Assembly (NCBI GenBank): GCA_025362585.1
Contig: JANYFR010000020.1
Location: forward strand, 1 to 64,000
Origin: Acidimicrobiales bacterium
GTDB lineage: Bacteria > Actinomycetota > Acidimicrobiia > Acidimicrobiales > RAAP-2
Direction: 5' to 3'
Length of the DNA stretch: 64,000 bases
The notes below the pieces were generated by a model. It was not told where the DNA came from and ran no database searches. It worked only from the letters and a program-made list of their open reading frames with translations. Below, piece by piece: positions 39,058 to 61,305 of this stretch (positions are counted from its first letter, which is position 1; every line of letters starts with the position of its first letter). The position numbers and the translations under genes were made by a program.

Positions 39058-39145
39058 GGAGGGGTGCGAGAGCGGCCGAATCGGGCAGTCTCGAAAACTG
39101 CTGTGTCTACGGGCACCGTGGGTTCAAATCCCACCTCCTCCGCCA
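39058..39145 (+). tRNA. tRNA-Ser (CGA)
   Basis: Starts GGAGGGG, pairs with CTCCTCC, discriminator G and encoded CCA. The anticodon loop CTCGAAA between GCAGT and ACTGC gives CGA. The long variable arm confirms serine. Its 3' 30 bases are identical to tRNA-Ser(GGA) at 26361. Confidence 0.97.
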
Positions 39146-47270: not shown

Positions 47271-48110
47271 TCATGGTCCACGGCCGTGACCTCGCTCCTC
47301 GAGCACCAATCGAAGCCGGTCGGCGACGCCGTGCCAGCCCTTGTACTCCAGGGTCCGCTCGGGCGCGGTATCGAGCGAATGCAGCAGCAGTGCGGCGAAG
47401 TCGGGCTCCACGTCGCACATCTGCTGGGCCGACGTCACGTAGTTGTGAATCGTGAAGACGACTGCCCGGGTCTCGGGCAGTTGGCGAATCGTCTGACGTT
47501 CAACGCGAAAGAACCACTGGGCGAGGTCGCCTTCGGGACTGCGCCTCGCCGCCGTTGGTTGGTGGAGCGTCGAGCTGTCGATAAGGGTCCAGTTGAGGCG
47601 CCAGAACGATCGTTCCGGTCCCAGTCGGTCGAAGACGGACCGGGTCGGCGCGGCGAGCTGCTCGTCGTAGTACGGGACCGTGTCGTGGATCTGGTCCAGT
47701 GTCGTGCCGATCTTGGTGGCGAGGTTCCAGCGCGACGGAAAGCAGACGCACGCCGCCGCTAAGCGCCACTCGTCGTCGCGCACCAAAACGCAGAGGTCCT
47801 CTTGGACGAGGCGACTCGCCGCGACGACCGGGTGTTCGTCGAGCGACGGTCCGGTCGCGACGTCGGGATGATGCAGAGCGAGGTTGGCTCGCACTTCATC
47901 GAGAAGCTCGAGGCTCGCCTCGTGGCCCGCAGGACGAGTCGCCACCACCACGTCGAAGGCGTTGGCCAGGAGTTGGCGCTTCAGTGCCAGCTCCGCGTCG
48001 CGGTGCTCGTCGACCTCGAGCCACGCCGCGAGGTCCAGCGGGCGCAGTCCCATGGCGAGGCGCCAGCCCCGGGGGTCGATCGGCGAGTAGGGAGACGTTC
48101 GATCGCTCAC
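47271..48110 (-). CDS. DUF3445 protein (heme-dependent oxidative N-demethylase-like)
   Basis: A 279-residue protein of the DUF3445 family; family members related to a heme-dependent oxidative N-demethylase act on dimethylamine. Recognisable blocks are RPLDLAAWLEVDEHRDAEL, LVQEDLCVLVRDDEWRLAAACVCFPSRW (in pieces), WRLNWTLIDSSTLHQP, FFRVERQTIRQLPET and VVFTIHNYV. GTG 48110 overlaps the stop of the small membrane gene (GTGA); a longer frame through that gene was rejected. Substrate unknown. Confidence 0.8.
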   Translation of the reverse strand: MSDRTSPYSPIDPRGWRLAMGLRPLDLAAWLEVDEHRDAELALKRQLLANAFDVVVATRPAGHEASLELLDEVRANLALHHPDVATGPSLDEHPVVAASRLVQEDLCVLVRDDEWRLAAACVCFPSRWNLATKIGTTLDQIHDTVPYYDEQLAAPTRSVFDRLGPERSFWRLNWTLIDSSTLHQPTAARRSPEGDLAQWFFRVERQTIRQLPETRAVVFTIHNYVTSAQQMCDVEPDFAALLLHSLDTAPERTLEYKGWHGVADRLRLVLEERGHGRGP

Positions 48111-48262
48111 GGGTGACGCCGGCGACGAGCGACTAACCAGTAGAGGATGACCGCGATGAGCGGAATCGCGACCACGACCACCCGCGCCGCTGGCAGGACG
48201 GCCCCGCGGTGGAGATTGGCGACCGTCGTTCCCGCCCACTGAGACGCGAATAGTTGACTCAC
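48107..48262 (-). CDS. 51-residue single-pass membrane protein
   Basis: Starts GTG at 48262, seven bases after a near-perfect AGGAGG site, and ends in a GTGA overlap with the DUF3445 gene. The protein starts MSQLFASQWAGTTVANLHRG, has one helix (VVVVAIPLIAVILYWLVA) and ends with a basic tail RRRRHP, so it should sit in the membrane with its C-terminus in the cytosol. The strong ribosome site and coupling argue it is real. I do not recognise the family; it may anchor or supply the DUF3445 protein. Confidence 0.72.
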   Translation of the reverse strand: MSQLFASQWAGTTVANLHRGAVLPAARVVVVAIPLIAVILYWLVARRRRHP

Positions 48263-48919: not shown

Positions 48920-49393
48920 CTACGCCTTCTTCTCCTGCTGGGCCATAAGCACTTCGATTCGCTCAACGATGTTGGAGATCGCCTTGTCCTGGGCGAGCAG
49001 GTGCTGTTGGATCTCCTCAGCCTCATGCAAGACCGCCTCGGCGTCCTTGTAGGTGTCCTCGGAGCGCTTGTCGGCGGCGGCGGCCTGGATGTTCTGACCG
49101 ACGATGATGATGGGCAGCAGCACCAACTGCAGAAAACTGCTCGAGAGCCAGACCACGATGAAGTAGGTGCCCTGCCTGATGGCGTCCGGCAGGGCGAACA
49201 GGGCGATGACCGTGAAGAGGTAGGCCATCCACATGGTGCCGACCACCAGGGTGATCCTTAACCCGAAGCGCGCGTTGAATCGCACGATCGCGTTCTGATG
49301 ATCGACCCTTCGCACGTCGAGGGACTTGACCGGGCCTTGCGCGTTGCGCTCGTCCACTCGAGGGTGACGAACGTAGTCGTAGATGTTGGACAT
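48920..49393 (-). CDS. Hypothetical membrane protein with coiled-coil tail
   Basis: A 157-residue protein. A charged head (MSNIYDYVRHPRVDERN) leads to two helices (LRITLVVGTMWMAYLFTVIALF and FIVVWLSSSFLQLVLLPIIIVG in pieces), then an Ala/Glu-rich coiled coil (residues 110-155). The layout resembles DUF1003-type proteins, but I would not assign it firmly. Start at ATG 49393. No operon partner. Confidence 0.65.
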   Translation of the reverse strand: MSNIYDYVRHPRVDERNAQGPVKSLDVRRVDHQNAIVRFNARFGLRITLVVGTMWMAYLFTVIALFALPDAIRQGTYFIVVWLSSSFLQLVLLPIIIVGQNIQAAAADKRSEDTYKDAEAVLHEAEEIQQHLLAQDKAISNIVERIEVLMAQQEKKA

Positions 49394-49454
49394 CACCGGA
49401 TTCTCACACGCCGCCCGACGCGACGTGGGGAGTCACCCCCGAGCGCGACCCGGC

Positions 49455-50651
49455 CTAGCTGCGCATCAGGTCCGGCGAGGTCTCCATGCCCTTTCGCCAC
49501 ACGGAACGGGCGATGATCTTGGTGGTGTCGGCCCGGTCCTTGTAGCGCAGTGCGATTTCGCGCACCTCCTCGAGAAGGCCCTCGGACAGGTACGTCGGGT
49601 CGAGACCGAGTTCGAGGAACTGGTCGCGACTCACGTTCAGATCGTTCTCCGCGGCCTCGCGACGGGGGTTCGGCAGGTTCGCGACCTCGACGCCAGTGAG
49701 CTTGGAGAGCAGCGCGGCGAGGTCGCGAACGCGGTAGGTCTCGGTGACCTGATTGAGGACCATCACCTTATCGCCGCGATCAGGCGCGTTCTCGAGGGCC
49801 AACTGCACGCATCGCACGGTGTCGCGAATGTGGATGAACGCGCGCGTCTGACCGCCGGTACCGTGCACCGTCAGCGGATGACCGATCGCCGCTTGCATGA
49901 GGAAGCGATTGAGCACCGTCCCGTAGTCGCCGTCGTAGTCGAAGCGGTTGATCAGTCGCTCGTCGAGCGAGGTCTGAGGGGTCTGAGTCCCCCAGACAAT
50001 TCCCTGATGCAGGTCGGTGATGCGCAATTGGTCGTTCGCGCAGTAGAAGGCGAAGAGCAGTTGGTCGAGGGTCTTGGAGAGGTGGTACACCGATCCCGGG
50101 TTCGACGGGTGCAGGATCTCGCGCTCGATGTCCCCGTCGGGCGTGGGCACCTTGACGGTCAGGTAGCCCTCGGGAATCGGGGCCGATCCCGACCAGCCGT
50201 AGCCGTAGACGCCCATCGTGCCGAGGTGGACGACCTGAATGTCGAGCCCGGAGGCGACAATGCCGGCCAGCACGTTGTGAGTGCCGCGCACGTTGTTGTC
50301 GATCGTGTAGCGCTTGGCGATGGTGCTGCGCATGGAGTACGGCGCGGCGCGCTGCTCACCGAAGTGGACCACGGCGTCGGGCCGCTCCGCGCGCAGTAGC
50401 GATTCGAATCGGTCGTACTCTTCGGCGAGGTCGAGGTGGACGAACCCAATCTGGCGACCCGAGAGTTCCTTCCAGACGCGGATGCGCTCGCCGATCGGGC
50501 GGATGGGGGTCAGGGACTCCACTTCGAGTTCGAGGTCGATTTCGCGCCGGCTGAGATTGTCGACGATGGAGACGTCGTGGCCGAGTTCCGAGAGATGCAA
50601 CGAAGTGGGCCAACCGCAAAATCCGTCACCGCCGAGTACCAGTACCTTCAT
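49455..50651 (-). CDS. sqdB: UDP-sulfoquinovose synthase (SQD1/SqdB-like)
   Basis: A 398-residue short-chain epimerase-fold enzyme closely patterned on plant SQD1: VLGGDGFCGWPTSLHLS, VESLTPI, VVHFGEQRAAPYSM, LGTMGVYG (catalytic Thr), SVYHLSKTLDQLL (Tyr and Lys), FDYDGDYGTVLNRF, IGHPLTVHGTGGQTR and SVWRK at the end. It should convert UDP-glucose and sulfite to UDP-sulfoquinovose for sulfolipid or sulfated glycans. ATG 50651 is the natural start. No sulfoquinovosyltransferase is adjacent. Length equals the family. Confidence 0.92.
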   Translation of the reverse strand: MKVLVLGGDGFCGWPTSLHLSELGHDVSIVDNLSRREIDLELEVESLTPIRPIGERIRVWKELSGRQIGFVHLDLAEEYDRFESLLRAERPDAVVHFGEQRAAPYSMRSTIAKRYTIDNNVRGTHNVLAGIVASGLDIQVVHLGTMGVYGYGWSGSAPIPEGYLTVKVPTPDGDIEREILHPSNPGSVYHLSKTLDQLLFAFYCANDQLRITDLHQGIVWGTQTPQTSLDERLINRFDYDGDYGTVLNRFLMQAAIGHPLTVHGTGGQTRAFIHIRDTVRCVQLALENAPDRGDKVMVLNQVTETYRVRDLAALLSKLTGVEVANLPNPRREAAENDLNVSRDQFLELGLDPTYLSEGLLEEVREIALRYKDRADTTKIIARSVWRKGMETSPDLMRS

Positions 50652-50787
50652 CAGTTCTCCTCAATCGAGGCTGCGCTCAGCCTCCATTATGCGACGACGT
50701 CCTCACCGGGGATTCGCAACTAGTAGACCTTACCAGCGACTGAATTGCGACCCCGACTGGGGCGTGGGCTCGAACGGACAGTCCCGA

Positions 50788-57921: not shown

Positions 57922-58836
57922 CTAAATTTTCACTCGGGATCTTGTCGCAACGAGCGCCGCCATCAGATCGCCCATCTTCTCGACTCGTTTCAGCACCTCC
58001 TTCGCTTCGAACCGAAGGAGGTCAGGGTTGCCGTTCTTGGCGCACTTGTCGACCTCTTGCCACGACACTGGTGTCGACACGGTCGGTTCGGGCCGCGCGC
58101 GAAGAGAGTACGCGGCAACGGTGGTCTTCGATGAGTTGTTTTGACTCCAGTCAATGAGGACTTTGCCGGCGCGGAGTGTCTTTTTCATTACCGAGACAAC
58201 GCTGTCGCGATGGTCTCGTTCGATCGCCTTGGCATGGTCGTGCGCACGTTCTCCCAACTGTTCCCAGGTCGTACGTTGAACGCGCTCATAGAGCTGGAGA
58301 CCCTTTGAACCACTGGTTTTCGCGAACAGTGACTCGCGACCCAACCGGTCGCCAAGCCACTGGGCCACACGACAACACTCGACGATCGTTGTTCCCGGGC
58401 CGGGATCGAGGTCGAAGACCATGTAGTCCGGGGGCGCCGGAACGGCCTTGCCCTTCGCGATGTGCCAGAGAGGCACGTGAAATTCAATGGCTGCCCGATT
58501 GGCCGCCCACAGCAGCGTGGGGCGATTGGCGACCGTCGTGTAGGTGACGGGCTCGTGCTCCCCTCGTTTGGAAGGAACTTCGATGGTCATGATCCACTCC
58601 GGGCGTTTCACTGGCGCGTGCTTTTCGTAGAACGACGTGCCTTCGATTCCGTTTGGATAACGGCGAAATGTGGTGGGTCGAGAGACAAGGTGCGGCACCA
58701 TGACGTCGGCGACTCGGGCGTAGTAATCCAGCACCTGGCTCTTCATAAATCCGGTGTCGGGGTACAAGACCTTGTCGAGGTTCGAGAGCGACAGTTCGCG
58801 GCCGTCGATCTCAGTGAAAATTCGGTCAAAACTCAC
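57922..58836 (-). CDS. ligD: LigD polymerase domain (NHEJ primase-polymerase)
   Basis: A 304-residue archaeo-eukaryotic primase-type polymerase that fills or extends broken DNA ends. The catalytic Asp pair is in YMVFDLDPGPGTT, and KTSGSKGLQLYERV is the nucleotide-binding block; LSNLDKVLYPDTGFMKSQVL is the family start. GTG 58836 overlaps the ligase gene end by 11 bp. In mycobacteria this domain is fused to the ligase; here it is a separate protein. Confidence 0.93.
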   Translation of the reverse strand: MSFDRIFTEIDGRELSLSNLDKVLYPDTGFMKSQVLDYYARVADVMVPHLVSRPTTFRRYPNGIEGTSFYEKHAPVKRPEWIMTIEVPSKRGEHEPVTYTTVANRPTLLWAANRAAIEFHVPLWHIAKGKAVPAPPDYMVFDLDPGPGTTIVECCRVAQWLGDRLGRESLFAKTSGSKGLQLYERVQRTTWEQLGERAHDHAKAIERDHRDSVVSVMKKTLRAGKVLIDWSQNNSSKTTVAAYSLRARPEPTVSTPVSWQEVDKCAKNGNPDLLRFEAKEVLKRVEKMGDLMAALVATRSRVKI

Positions 58837-60298
58837 GGACCACGTCCTGCGCTCTCTTATCCGTGCGAAGTCCGCGCCACGACGGTTGACGCAGATTGGC
58901 GTCATTGGTCCACTCCGCGAACTGGACCTCACCCACGATTGTGGGGCGAACGAAGTGAGCGAGCGCCCTGTCCGAGCGGCCGAGCGGGGTCACGAACGGT
59001 GTCGACTTTCGCGCCAGCGGCTTTAGTTGCTCGAGCAGTTCCTCACGCGTCGCGGCGGTGAAACCGGTGCCCACTTTGCCGACGTACTCCAGTCCTTGCT
59101 CGGAGTGAACGCCAAGTAGCAGTGCACCGAGGCTGCCCTCGCGCTCGCCCCTTCCCTCGGTCCACCCACCAATGACCACCTCTTGCGTGAAGAAGTTCTT
59201 GACTTTGATCCACTGGCCACTTCGCGAACCCGGAATGTAGCGAGCGTCTCGGCGCTTTACAACGACGCCTTCGAAACCGCGTTCTCGTGAGATACCAAGC
59301 ACCTTGGCGCCGGTGGCGTTCGTGATTGAAGGTGGCGTCGCGAACGTCTCGCCCTGCAACTGAAGTGACTCGAGCGCAGTACGTCGCTCGTCGTAGGTGA
59401 GGTCCATGATCGAATGGTCGTCGAGATACAACAAGTCGAATGCGAAGAAGCTTGCGGGTATCGAGCGTCGCAGCTGTTCGATCGCCGGCTTGGACGTCAC
59501 GTGGAGTCGCTTCGACAGTGTCGAAAAATTCGGACGGCTGTCCTTATCCAACGCAACAATCTCGCCGTCCAGGATCGCTGATCGTGAACCTAGGTGCAGG
59601 CCAATGTCGCGTAGTTCGGGAAAGGTCGACAGCAGACTCTTCTCGTTGCGCGTGAAGGCCCGCACGCGCCCGCCGTCGACGTACACCAGAGCCCGTACGC
59701 CGTCCCACTTGAATTCGTACGCCCAGCCGGCCTCCCTCGTGGGTAGTTCACTCGACAGTGCCCGCATGGGCTTGACGTGTTGGGGCATGGCCTCGAAGTA
59801 CGCCGGTGCCGGGTCCATGCGATGAATCATCCAGTTCTTCTCGTCGATGGGAAAGAGGACGTAGCGGCCGGACGCCCGCTTGCCGTGCAGCACGACCATG
59901 ACTTCATTGGTCCGCCACTTTTCTGTGTCGTACGTGCCGTGATCCCAAATGGTCACTTGACCGGCACCGTACTGGCCTTTGGGAATGATCCCTTCAAACC
60001 CTCCGTAATCGAATGGATGGTCTTCGACGTGCACGGCGAGGTGATTGACGTCAGGGTCCATGGGAAGACCCTTGGGGAGCGCCCACGACACCAGGACGCC
60101 GTCTCGTTCCAAACGAAAGTCCCAGTGCAGAGCCCGGGCGTGGTGCTCTTGAATGACGAACGTCGGGAGATCCGATCTCTTCGCATTCTTCTTCGTCGTC
60201 GCACCCATTGGTTCAGGCGTGCGCTTGGAATCCCGCTTCGCCCGATAGGTGGTGAGCTTTGAAGGTGGGATGGCGGGGCTGTCGTTGGCGCGAGCCAT
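58826..60298 (-). CDS. ligD: LigD: 3'-phosphoesterase plus ATP-dependent DNA ligase
   Basis: A 490-residue bifunctional protein. Residues 45-165 are the phosphoesterase (FVIQEHHARALHWDFRLE, SWALPKGLP, DHPFDYGGFEG), which trims 3' ends; residues 190-490 are the ligase with the adenylated Lys in YEFKWDGVRALVY, later GFEGVVVKRRDARY and KVKNF. The order phosphoesterase-ligase without polymerase differs from the three-domain mycobacterial LigD. It lies between ku (8 bp upstream) and the polymerase gene. Confidence 0.94.
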   Translation of the reverse strand: MARANDSPAIPPSKLTTYRAKRDSKRTPEPMGATTKKNAKRSDLPTFVIQEHHARALHWDFRLERDGVLVSWALPKGLPMDPDVNHLAVHVEDHPFDYGGFEGIIPKGQYGAGQVTIWDHGTYDTEKWRTNEVMVVLHGKRASGRYVLFPIDEKNWMIHRMDPAPAYFEAMPQHVKPMRALSSELPTREAGWAYEFKWDGVRALVYVDGGRVRAFTRNEKSLLSTFPELRDIGLHLGSRSAILDGEIVALDKDSRPNFSTLSKRLHVTSKPAIEQLRRSIPASFFAFDLLYLDDHSIMDLTYDERRTALESLQLQGETFATPPSITNATGAKVLGISRERGFEGVVVKRRDARYIPGSRSGQWIKVKNFFTQEVVIGGWTEGRGEREGSLGALLLGVHSEQGLEYVGKVGTGFTAATREELLEQLKPLARKSTPFVTPLGRSDRALAHFVRPTIVGEVQFAEWTNDANLRQPSWRGLRTDKRAQDVVREF

Positions 60299-60306
60299 GA
60301 AGCCGA

Positions 60307-61305
60307 TCAGTCCGATTTCTTCTTGGCGTTCTTGGCGGCACTCACGACGCGAATCAATTCGTCCTTGGTCATCTTCGCGTTGACGTCCAGTTTGAGTTTC
60401 TTCGCACGCTCGATGAGATCGGCTTTGGTCATGGCGTCGAGTCCCTGTCGCTCACGATGGGCCGAGACACTGATGCTCGCGCCTTTGGTGGCACCAGTCG
60501 CCTTGGCCGCCGACCGGGTTGGTCGCTTCGCCGAGCGGTCGATTGACGCCTGCAACGCCGACATCAGGTCGATGACGTTCGACTTCGGTCGGTCCTCGGC
60601 GCCGTGCACGACAGCATGGCCAGCGCGCTTTTGCTCGACGAGCTCCTCCACGCGTTCGCGGTACGTGTTCTTGTAGCGACCCGGGTCCCACTCGTCCGTC
60701 AACGATTCAACGAGCTTCTTCGCGATGGTTAGCTCGCGGGCGTTGGCGTTGCCAACCGTTGGCAAGGTGTCGAGTTCTTCTTCGGGATTGCGGATCTCAT
60801 CTTCGAAGAACATCGTCTCCAGCATCAACACCTTCTCAGCGGGCCGCACGGCGACGAGGTGTTCCTTGTCGCGCAAGACTAACGTTGCGATGCCCACCTT
60901 CTTGGTTTCGAGCATCGCCTGGAGCAGCAGTGCGTACGCCCGATCGGCACCTTTGCCCTTGGGCGCGAGGTAGTACGACTGTCGAAAGAAGATCGGGTCG
61001 ATCTCATCCAAATTGACGAAGTCCATAATCTCGATCAACTCCGACTTTCCAGGAGCTGCTTCGGCCATCTCTTCGCGGGTGACGACGACGTACTCACCTC
61101 CGCCGAGCGGGTAGCCGTTGACGATGTCCTCGCCGGAGAGCTCCTCACCGGTCTCTTCGTCCACCTTCTTGTAGCGCACCCGGTGCGAGGTGTTCTTGAC
61201 CAGTTGGTTGAAGTGAATGGTCTGGTCCGACGTTGCGCTATAGAGGCCCACGGGGACACTGACCAATCCGAAGCTCAAAAAGCCTGACCATGTGGAACGT
61301 GCCAT
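60307..61305 (-). CDS. ku: Ku protein with C-terminal SAP-like domain
   Basis: A 332-residue bacterial Ku that binds double-strand ends as a ring dimer and recruits LigD. WSGFLSFGLVSVPVGLYSA starts the beta-barrel; YKKVDEETGEEL and DPIFFRQSYYLAPKG are conserved. After the core (residues 1-255) there is a basic linker and a SAP-type helix pair (MTKADLIERAKKLKLDVNAK, then KDELIRVV) ending in lysines, which should add DNA binding. First gene of the repair operon. Confidence 0.95.
   Translation of the reverse strand: MARSTWSGFLSFGLVSVPVGLYSATSDQTIHFNQLVKNTSHRVRYKKVDEETGEELSGEDIVNGYPLGGGEYVVVTREEMAEAAPGKSELIEIMDFVNLDEIDPIFFRQSYYLAPKGKGADRAYALLLQAMLETKKVGIATLVLRDKEHLVAVRPAEKVLMLETMFFEDEIRNPEEELDTLPTVGNANARELTIAKKLVESLTDEWDPGRYKNTYRERVEELVEQKRAGHAVVHGAEDRPKSNVIDLMSALQASIDRSAKRPTRSAAKATGATKGASISVSAHRERQGLDAMTKADLIERAKKLKLDVNAKMTKDELIRVVSAAKNAKKKSD

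Follow-up and report, generated by a model that had tools for sequence, protein, structure and literature searches.

A predicted SqdB-type UDP-sulfoquinovose synthase in an Acidimicrobiales genome with no recognisable known sulfoquinovosyltransferase

In plants the UDP-sulfoquinovose synthase SQD1 works with the GT4 enzyme SQD2, and the sqdB gene of S. meliloti was reportedly found by Weissenmayer and others in 2000 to be needed for SQDG. In R. sphaeroides sqdB has been deleted to prevent SQDG synthesis (PMC11346425). For the archaeal enzyme Agl3 of Sulfolobus acidocaldarius, a 2015 study describes mutants in which His95, Arg101, Met145, Tyr182 and Lys186 proved essential, Ser180 and Tyr148 important and Thr144 dispensable; Glu147 and Tyr148 were proposed to serve the dehydration step, the Glu147 mutant being less active rather than dead, and sulfite transfer to the synthase in vivo was stated there to be unknown (PMC4388408). 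The fingerprint of the enzyme is given as [ST]MG...Yx3K, with its acid and base listed as unknown, in Table 1 of a review (PMC8987622).

The window analysed here, a stretch of 64,000 nucleotides from an Acidimicrobiales bacterium of soil (contig JANYFR010000020.1, contig C25 of our set), carries a gene of this kind together with the following elements.

49455..50651, minus strand: predicted UDP-sulfoquinovose synthase, SqdB type (398 aa, P0001), with a full-length match to SQD1 and SqdB, a GGDGFCGWP NAD-binding motif, TMG and YHLSK
50657..50661, minus strand: AGGAG, likely ribosome binding site, read from the upstream sequence
50727..50735, minus strand: TGGTAAGGT, putative extended -10 promoter element, 76-84 bases 5' of the ATG
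48920..49396, minus strand: DUF1003 protein (158 aa; Pfam PF06210, E 4.6e-8), the next gene downstream after a gap of 58 bp

The synthase frame is intact, running from an ATG at 50651 to a stop that ends at 49455 (398 codons, no internal stops). In an alignment of 48 upstream stretches, from relatives whose proteins are 80% or more identical, the TGGTA of the putative -10 element is conserved in no fewer than 80%, which suggests that the synthase gene has a promoter of its own; a sigma-70 consensus scan and a terminator scan at the gene both came back empty. The DUF1003 gene is possibly co-transcribed with the synthase gene, and the DUF1003 cluster, which lies close to the synthase in 40 of 100 loci, is the sole conserved neighbour of the window gene. 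Elsewhere in the window, positions 47271-48239 encode a HODM_asu-like protein with a haem-dependent N-demethylase domain (PF11927, E 1e-54), members of whose cluster (c3) lie close to the synthase in 20 of 100 loci. Positions 57922-61305 hold NHEJ repair genes, with the LigD polymerase and the LigD phosphoesterase-ligase as two overlapping frames followed by Ku. A tRNA-Ser gene at 39058-39145 overlaps the start of a listed 509-aa ORF at 39064, and as the GABA-transaminase match of this ORF begins only at residue 69, its real start lies further downstream.

The window gene very probably encodes a UDP-sulfoquinovose synthase. When compared with solved structures using phmmer, the protein matched Arabidopsis SQD1 (1qrr) over residues 2-390 of 398 (344.7 bits, E 7.8e-102), and the best PDB match other than SQD1 entries reached E 1.1e-9; a full-length match of 345 bits to a crystal structure fixes the fold. 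Among the features expected of EC 3.13.1.1, homology to SQD1 over the full length and the [ST]MG...YxxxK fingerprint (T145 M146 G147; Y189-H-L-S-K193) are present. The original prediction, that of a UDP-sulfoquinovose synthase matching SQD1 along the whole chain with catalytic Thr, Tyr and Lys, was therefore borne out, with Thr145, Tyr189 and Lys193 in place. Pfam returned superfamily-level matches only, the best being PF01370. The window protein scored 312.7 bits against the NCBIfam model for UDP-sulfoquinovose synthase (NF041015), under the curated cut-off of 575, as did the two reductase-synthase fusion proteins described below; we considered this score as an argument against the identity and set it down to a limit of that model. 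The protein shares with Arabidopsis thaliana SQD1 (1qrr, 1i24) the full-length homology, the catalytic Thr-Tyr-Lys and the TMG motif, but differs in the residue that follows TMG, Val rather than Glu, and in having a longer loop at that point.

The active site was compared with that of Agl3 by matching motifs. P0001 has His96, Arg101, Thr145, Met146, Tyr149, Ser187, Tyr189 and Lys193, and so holds equivalents of all five essential Agl3 residues (His95, Arg101, Met145, Tyr182 and Lys186 corresponding to H96, R101, M146, Y189 and K193), whilst differing from Agl3 in having Val where the archaeal enzyme has Glu147. Across 161 loci with a match, representing 141 distinct sequences, conservation in Agl3 numbering was 141 of 141 for His95, 140 for each of Tyr182 and Lys186, 139 for Arg101 and 137 for Met145. 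The residue after TMG was Val in 125 of the distinct sequences, Glu in 14, Asp in one and Lys in one, a Val:Glu ratio of 125:14 that is biased towards the window's clade since the window protein served as the query for collecting the homologues. Glu directly follows TMG in Glu-type proteins (Arabidopsis SQD1, Agl3 and loci L106-L110), whereas Val148 places the window protein in the Val-type (SqdB) subfamily, to which the S. meliloti (L112) and roseobacter (L117, L119) homologues also belong; the sqd names used for these three clusters are our own, following the sqdBDC gene order (PMC11346425) and a published gene list (PMC10315480). These SqdB-like proteins are 61-63% identical to the window protein over the full length (61% for L112) and share its TMGVYGY and RAFIH motifs, but in their clusters a GT8 (SqdD-like) gene and a gene for a SqdC-like epimerase come after the synthase, whereas the window gene has no such companions and searches of its genome yielded no GT8. 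Because Val occupies the site in these cluster-linked SqdB-like proteins, the comparison argues that Glu would not be required there. In a tree of 53 sequences the 39 Val-type rows formed one group (100/95), and the window fell among 18 rows, mostly from actinobacterial bins and isolates, that cluster together (99/97) and have the S. meliloti/roseobacter sqdBDC-like rows as their sister (86/78). Several of the deep forks in this tree are open, the branches of L110, L113, L114 and L118 are long, and the program flagged that long branches had come together.

A synthase-like paralogue was also seen at L111:5206-7704 (+) and G057:C16:11295-12410, in an 846-aa open frame that has lost the catalytic Tyr and Lys (GSMGDPG, FGHLSQ); it is possibly a non-catalytic relative, and at L111 a GT2 lies at a distance of 2.3 kb.

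Synthase homologues were present in 33 of the 37 genomes of the genus, the window's own included, the others being 81-90% identical, and chance is thereby excluded as an explanation for the gene. In the rest of the order 5 of 24 genomes carried a homologue, and in a sample of the phylum 87 of 396 matched at E 1e-40. Cultured carriers of the clade include Kutzneria sp. 744, Kitasatospora sp. MAP5-34 and Catenulispora rubra. Among the closest relatives, most contigs that bear a name come from Acidimicrobiaceae or actinobacterial bins, several of them named for palsa and bog; bins labelled Saccharibacteria (L072, L074) and Acidobacteriota (L036) may reflect binning errors. An alignment of UDP-sulfoquinovose synthases published in 2015 already included sequences from the heterotrophs Mycobacterium, Propionibacterium and Saccharopolyspora (PMC4388408), and PMC4796936 cites work that detected sqdB in heterotrophs from the environment. 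Thus, whilst the enzyme call of the earlier interpretation is well supported, its surprise at a heterotrophic actinobacterial host does not survive these records and the 87 matching genomes. As a gene the window synthase is ordinary, and it extends a known enzyme family by one lineage.

Genes for a sulfite supply were found on a different contig of the genome (C11), where CysN and CysD lie side by side with CysH divergent to them. In several other carriers such genes adjoin the synthase: CysH, CysD and CysN are upstream of it on the opposite strand in Kitasatospora (L048) and Kutzneria (L051), as are CysD and CysN in Catenulispora (L054), and CysH comes after it on a Pelagovum plasmid (L116). 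In two relatives, a Nocardioidaceae bin (L084:7086-9206, +) and a Nocardioides bin (L100:4311-6416, +), an APS/PAPS reductase and the synthase share a single frame of 707 and 702 codons respectively, in the order N-terminal reductase, Thr/Pro-rich linker of 82 (L084) or 52 (L100) residues and full synthase. The reductase halves match PF01507 (E 1.4e-40 for L084 and 8.4e-42 for L100) and carry the CC, CxxC and ECGIH motifs; against the APS-type model TIGR02055 (cut-off 235.3), L084 passes with 240.4 and L100 just misses with 233.9. The absence of any stop between the halves means that reading of the reductase leads into the synthase, and the difference between the two linkers speaks against a shared assembly error. 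As GAAGGG precedes an internal ATG in the fusion frame, free synthase may be made besides the fusion product. The synthase halves are 68-69% identical to the window protein and have the same motif type, whereas the window genome encodes CysH as a separate gene on its other contig rather than as an N-terminal domain. Both cases come from bins, none having been found in an isolate; none of 37 matching plasmid records covers 80% of the fusion, and a limited search of open-licence literature returned no report of one.

The window genome's own CysH (L133:9306-9983, on contig C11) keeps CC and ECGLH and has GCAAM where L048, L051, L084 and L100 have CxxC, and the CysH of L070 has GCAAV at the same site; one iron-sulfur ligand seems to have been lost in this lineage.

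The absence of a transferase neighbour, as originally noted, was upheld on the window's contig, to which none of the genome's PF00534, PF13439 and PF00535 matches (10, 9 and 14 respectively) belongs, and PF01501 is absent genome-wide. The genome search that had been proposed alongside likewise returned neither SqdX nor SqdD from this 96.4% complete metagenome-assembled genome. With the Corynebacterium GT4 of L087 (P0002) as the SqdX query and all 16 candidates scored, the best match in the genome reached E 1e-24 over half the chain. This protein scored 373 bits against the MshA model TIGR03449 (cut-off 462.5) and by that comparison is MshA-like, a relative of a mycothiol enzyme, and a profile built from five synthase-linked GT4 proteins gave those five 630-673 bits and the genome's own protein 103 (12 fetched stretches of the genome). 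An S. meliloti SqdD-like query gave no match at E 0.01 in a search run without a positive control, and PF01501 (GT8), which does recognise the S. meliloti SqdD-like protein (E 5e-11) and matched 4 of 14 controls, gave none in this genome. For Agl16 the best score was 63 against a cut-off of 575 among six of the ten PF00534 proteins.

Although a single loss from a 96.4% complete genome could be a gap, the absence recurs across the family. All 12 listed genomes of the window's family, in a listing ordered by kinship that omits 289 genomes lacking a match, carry the synthase, and none of the 12 gave a SqdX match at E 1e-45 with at most four candidates scored per genome, whereas at the same depth all 26 synthase carriers of another actinobacterial family (f47) did. 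A SqdX match of at least 40% identity, a split chosen after viewing the list, was seen in 28 genomes, 27 of which carry the synthase (the exception being G155), with 26 of those 27 belonging to f47, and the two genes were adjacent in 10 of the 28. These phylum-wide searches took at most four first-look candidates per genome and could miss a SqdX among many GT4 proteins; as far as tested, SqdX tracks the synthase in f47 and was not found in the window's family. No conserved transferase adjoins the synthase in the window's own genus. What is unusual about this UDP-sulfoquinovose synthase is that none of the known transferases could be recognised in its genome or, to the extent searched, in its family.

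By homology, the synthase would bind NAD+ tightly and oxidise UDP-glucose at C4, then eliminate water across C5-C6, add sulfite at C6 and reduce C4 to yield UDP-sulfoquinovose, following the mechanism published for SQD1 and Agl3. Sulfate would be converted to sulfite via CysN-CysD-CysH, whose genes are present on the other contig and whose flux is presumed, and UDP-sulfoquinovose would be used by a glycosyltransferase encoded elsewhere, from outside the SqdX and SqdD families. Taken as a whole this chain is, in our judgement, likely, a rating tempered by the four-candidate depth of the family-wide SqdX search and by the lack of a positive control in the SqdD search. The SQD1 match, the identity to L112, the Agl3 residues, the tree, the SqdX-like and Cys neighbours, the fusions and the genome's own CysN, CysD and CysH were counted in its favour; the NF041015 score, Val148 at the position of a Glu whose loss weakens Agl3, and GCAAM in the genome's own CysH were counted against it. 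The failure to find any of the known sulfoquinovosyltransferases would be compatible, too, with a gene retained for another purpose. As the acceptor, we rate diacylglycerol, giving an anionic sulfolipid, and a surface glycan as about equally probable.

We give only slightly less than an even chance to the production of SQDG, a phosphorus-free anionic membrane lipid, from UDP-sulfoquinovose by a so far unrecognised glycosyltransferase, which corresponds to the phosphate-replacement sulfolipid of the earlier interpretation. The SqdB-type clade includes the sqdBDC-like clusters of S. meliloti and roseobacters, sqdB of the former is listed as a member of the Pho regulon (PMC10315480), and the 10 PF00534 matches of the window's genome are candidate transferases. 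To be set against this are the failure to find SqdX or SqdD in that genome, the MshA-like character of its best SqdX-like protein and, weighing little because it rests on one crude regular expression, the absence of a PHO-box-like pattern from all 48 upstream stretches.

The use of UDP-sulfoquinovose for a surface polysaccharide or glycoprotein, possibly by way of a sugar linked to polyprenyl phosphate, the product of a GT2 that has GtrA or GT-C partners, is plausible too, at a chance that we place somewhat below even. Agl3 makes UDP-sulfoquinovose for glycoconjugates (PMC4388408). The neighbourhoods of relatives were called with a simple ORF finder and seeds, used for presence only as the E-values contain self-matches, and checked with Pfam for the examples; glycosyltransferase signals were seen within 7 kb of the synthase in 20 of 57 loci (L044-L100, many with a short flank). 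A GT2 directly follows the synthase in L072, L074, L154, L155 and L157; a DUF2304-GT2 fusion does so in L148-L151 (domains confirmed for L148, L149 and L151) and also in the Glu-type L161-L162; GT-C membrane proteins are near it in L146-L151 and L156, the one in L156 being PMT-like, with a PIG-V-like protein in L177 and a TMEM260-like one in L179; and GtrA is near it in L071, a genus member, and in L094 and L095. Judging from these partners, the GT2 enzymes would act on polyprenyl phosphate. On a Rhodococcus plasmid (L113) the synthase is followed by a GT2 and by a protein that matches BcsB weakly. The window gene, however, has no such neighbour, the best GT2 of its genome sits among housekeeping genes, and DUF2304 was not found in that genome; L094 moreover has a SqdX-like GT4, so GtrA alone does not exclude a lipid. 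SqdX-like GT4 genes adjoin the synthase in L087, L090, L094 and L098 (85-118 bp) and lie 2.8 kb from it in L089. Across the carriers, GT2, GT-C and GtrA neighbours point to glycans in some and SqdX or SqdD neighbours to lipid in others.

Three of these regions may be described further. At L071:3264-7835 GtrA and GT2 are divergent to the synthase. A DUF2079 membrane protein of 712 aa accompanies them, as does an epimerase that shares 50% identity with another found close to the synthase of Saccharomonospora (L095). L137 and L071 are one and the same DNA and make a single case, and the window lacks the GtrA-GT2 pair. The Rhodococcus qingshengii plasmid stretch L113:1430-12945 holds a SulP transporter, the synthase, the weakly BcsB-like protein, the GT2 and an alkyl sulfatase within 12 kb, and is perhaps a sulfonated exopolysaccharide cluster. 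In the window's own genome the best GT2 (L188:6163-6963) is 36-39% identical to the group of L108, L109, L148-L151 and L161-L162; as an orthologue of the synthase-linked GT2 it is unconvincing, lying among ORFs read as IspH, PlsC and AroA.

A different nucleotide sugar, made by a dehydratase or epimerase that has lost the sulfite chemistry, would fit Val at the Agl3 Glu147 site and the NCBIfam score under the cut-off, but is very improbable, given that Val is likewise found among members linked to SqdX or CysH and in the homologues from S. meliloti and roseobacters, that the protein has TMG as in SQD1 where 4,6-dehydratases have [ST]DE (PMC8987622, Table 1), and that relatives show the fusion and the linkage to sulfite-producing enzymes.

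Returning to the preferred chain, in which the synthase draws on CysN-CysD-CysH sulfite and supplies a transferase outside the SqdX and SqdD families, an extension to the whole actinobacterial family may be put forward tentatively: a SqdX- and SqdD-free pathway in which another transferase would carry the sugar to a surface glycan or lipid and, in the Val-type clade, sulfite would be handed directly from APS reductase to synthase. The hand-over is suggested by the reductase-synthase fusions in two relatives, and we think it rather doubtful that every part of this extension holds.

Two features deserve to be followed up, the fusions with the reductase and the Val-type active site. The Val-type clade, members of sqdBDC-like clusters included, argues against a required Glu at the Glu147-Tyr148 site proposed in PMC4388408, and a natural fusion of APS/PAPS reductase and synthase offers a direct way to test sulfite channelling. 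Actinobacteria that carry the synthase and none of the known transferases suggest that a further kind of sulfoquinovosyltransferase exists.
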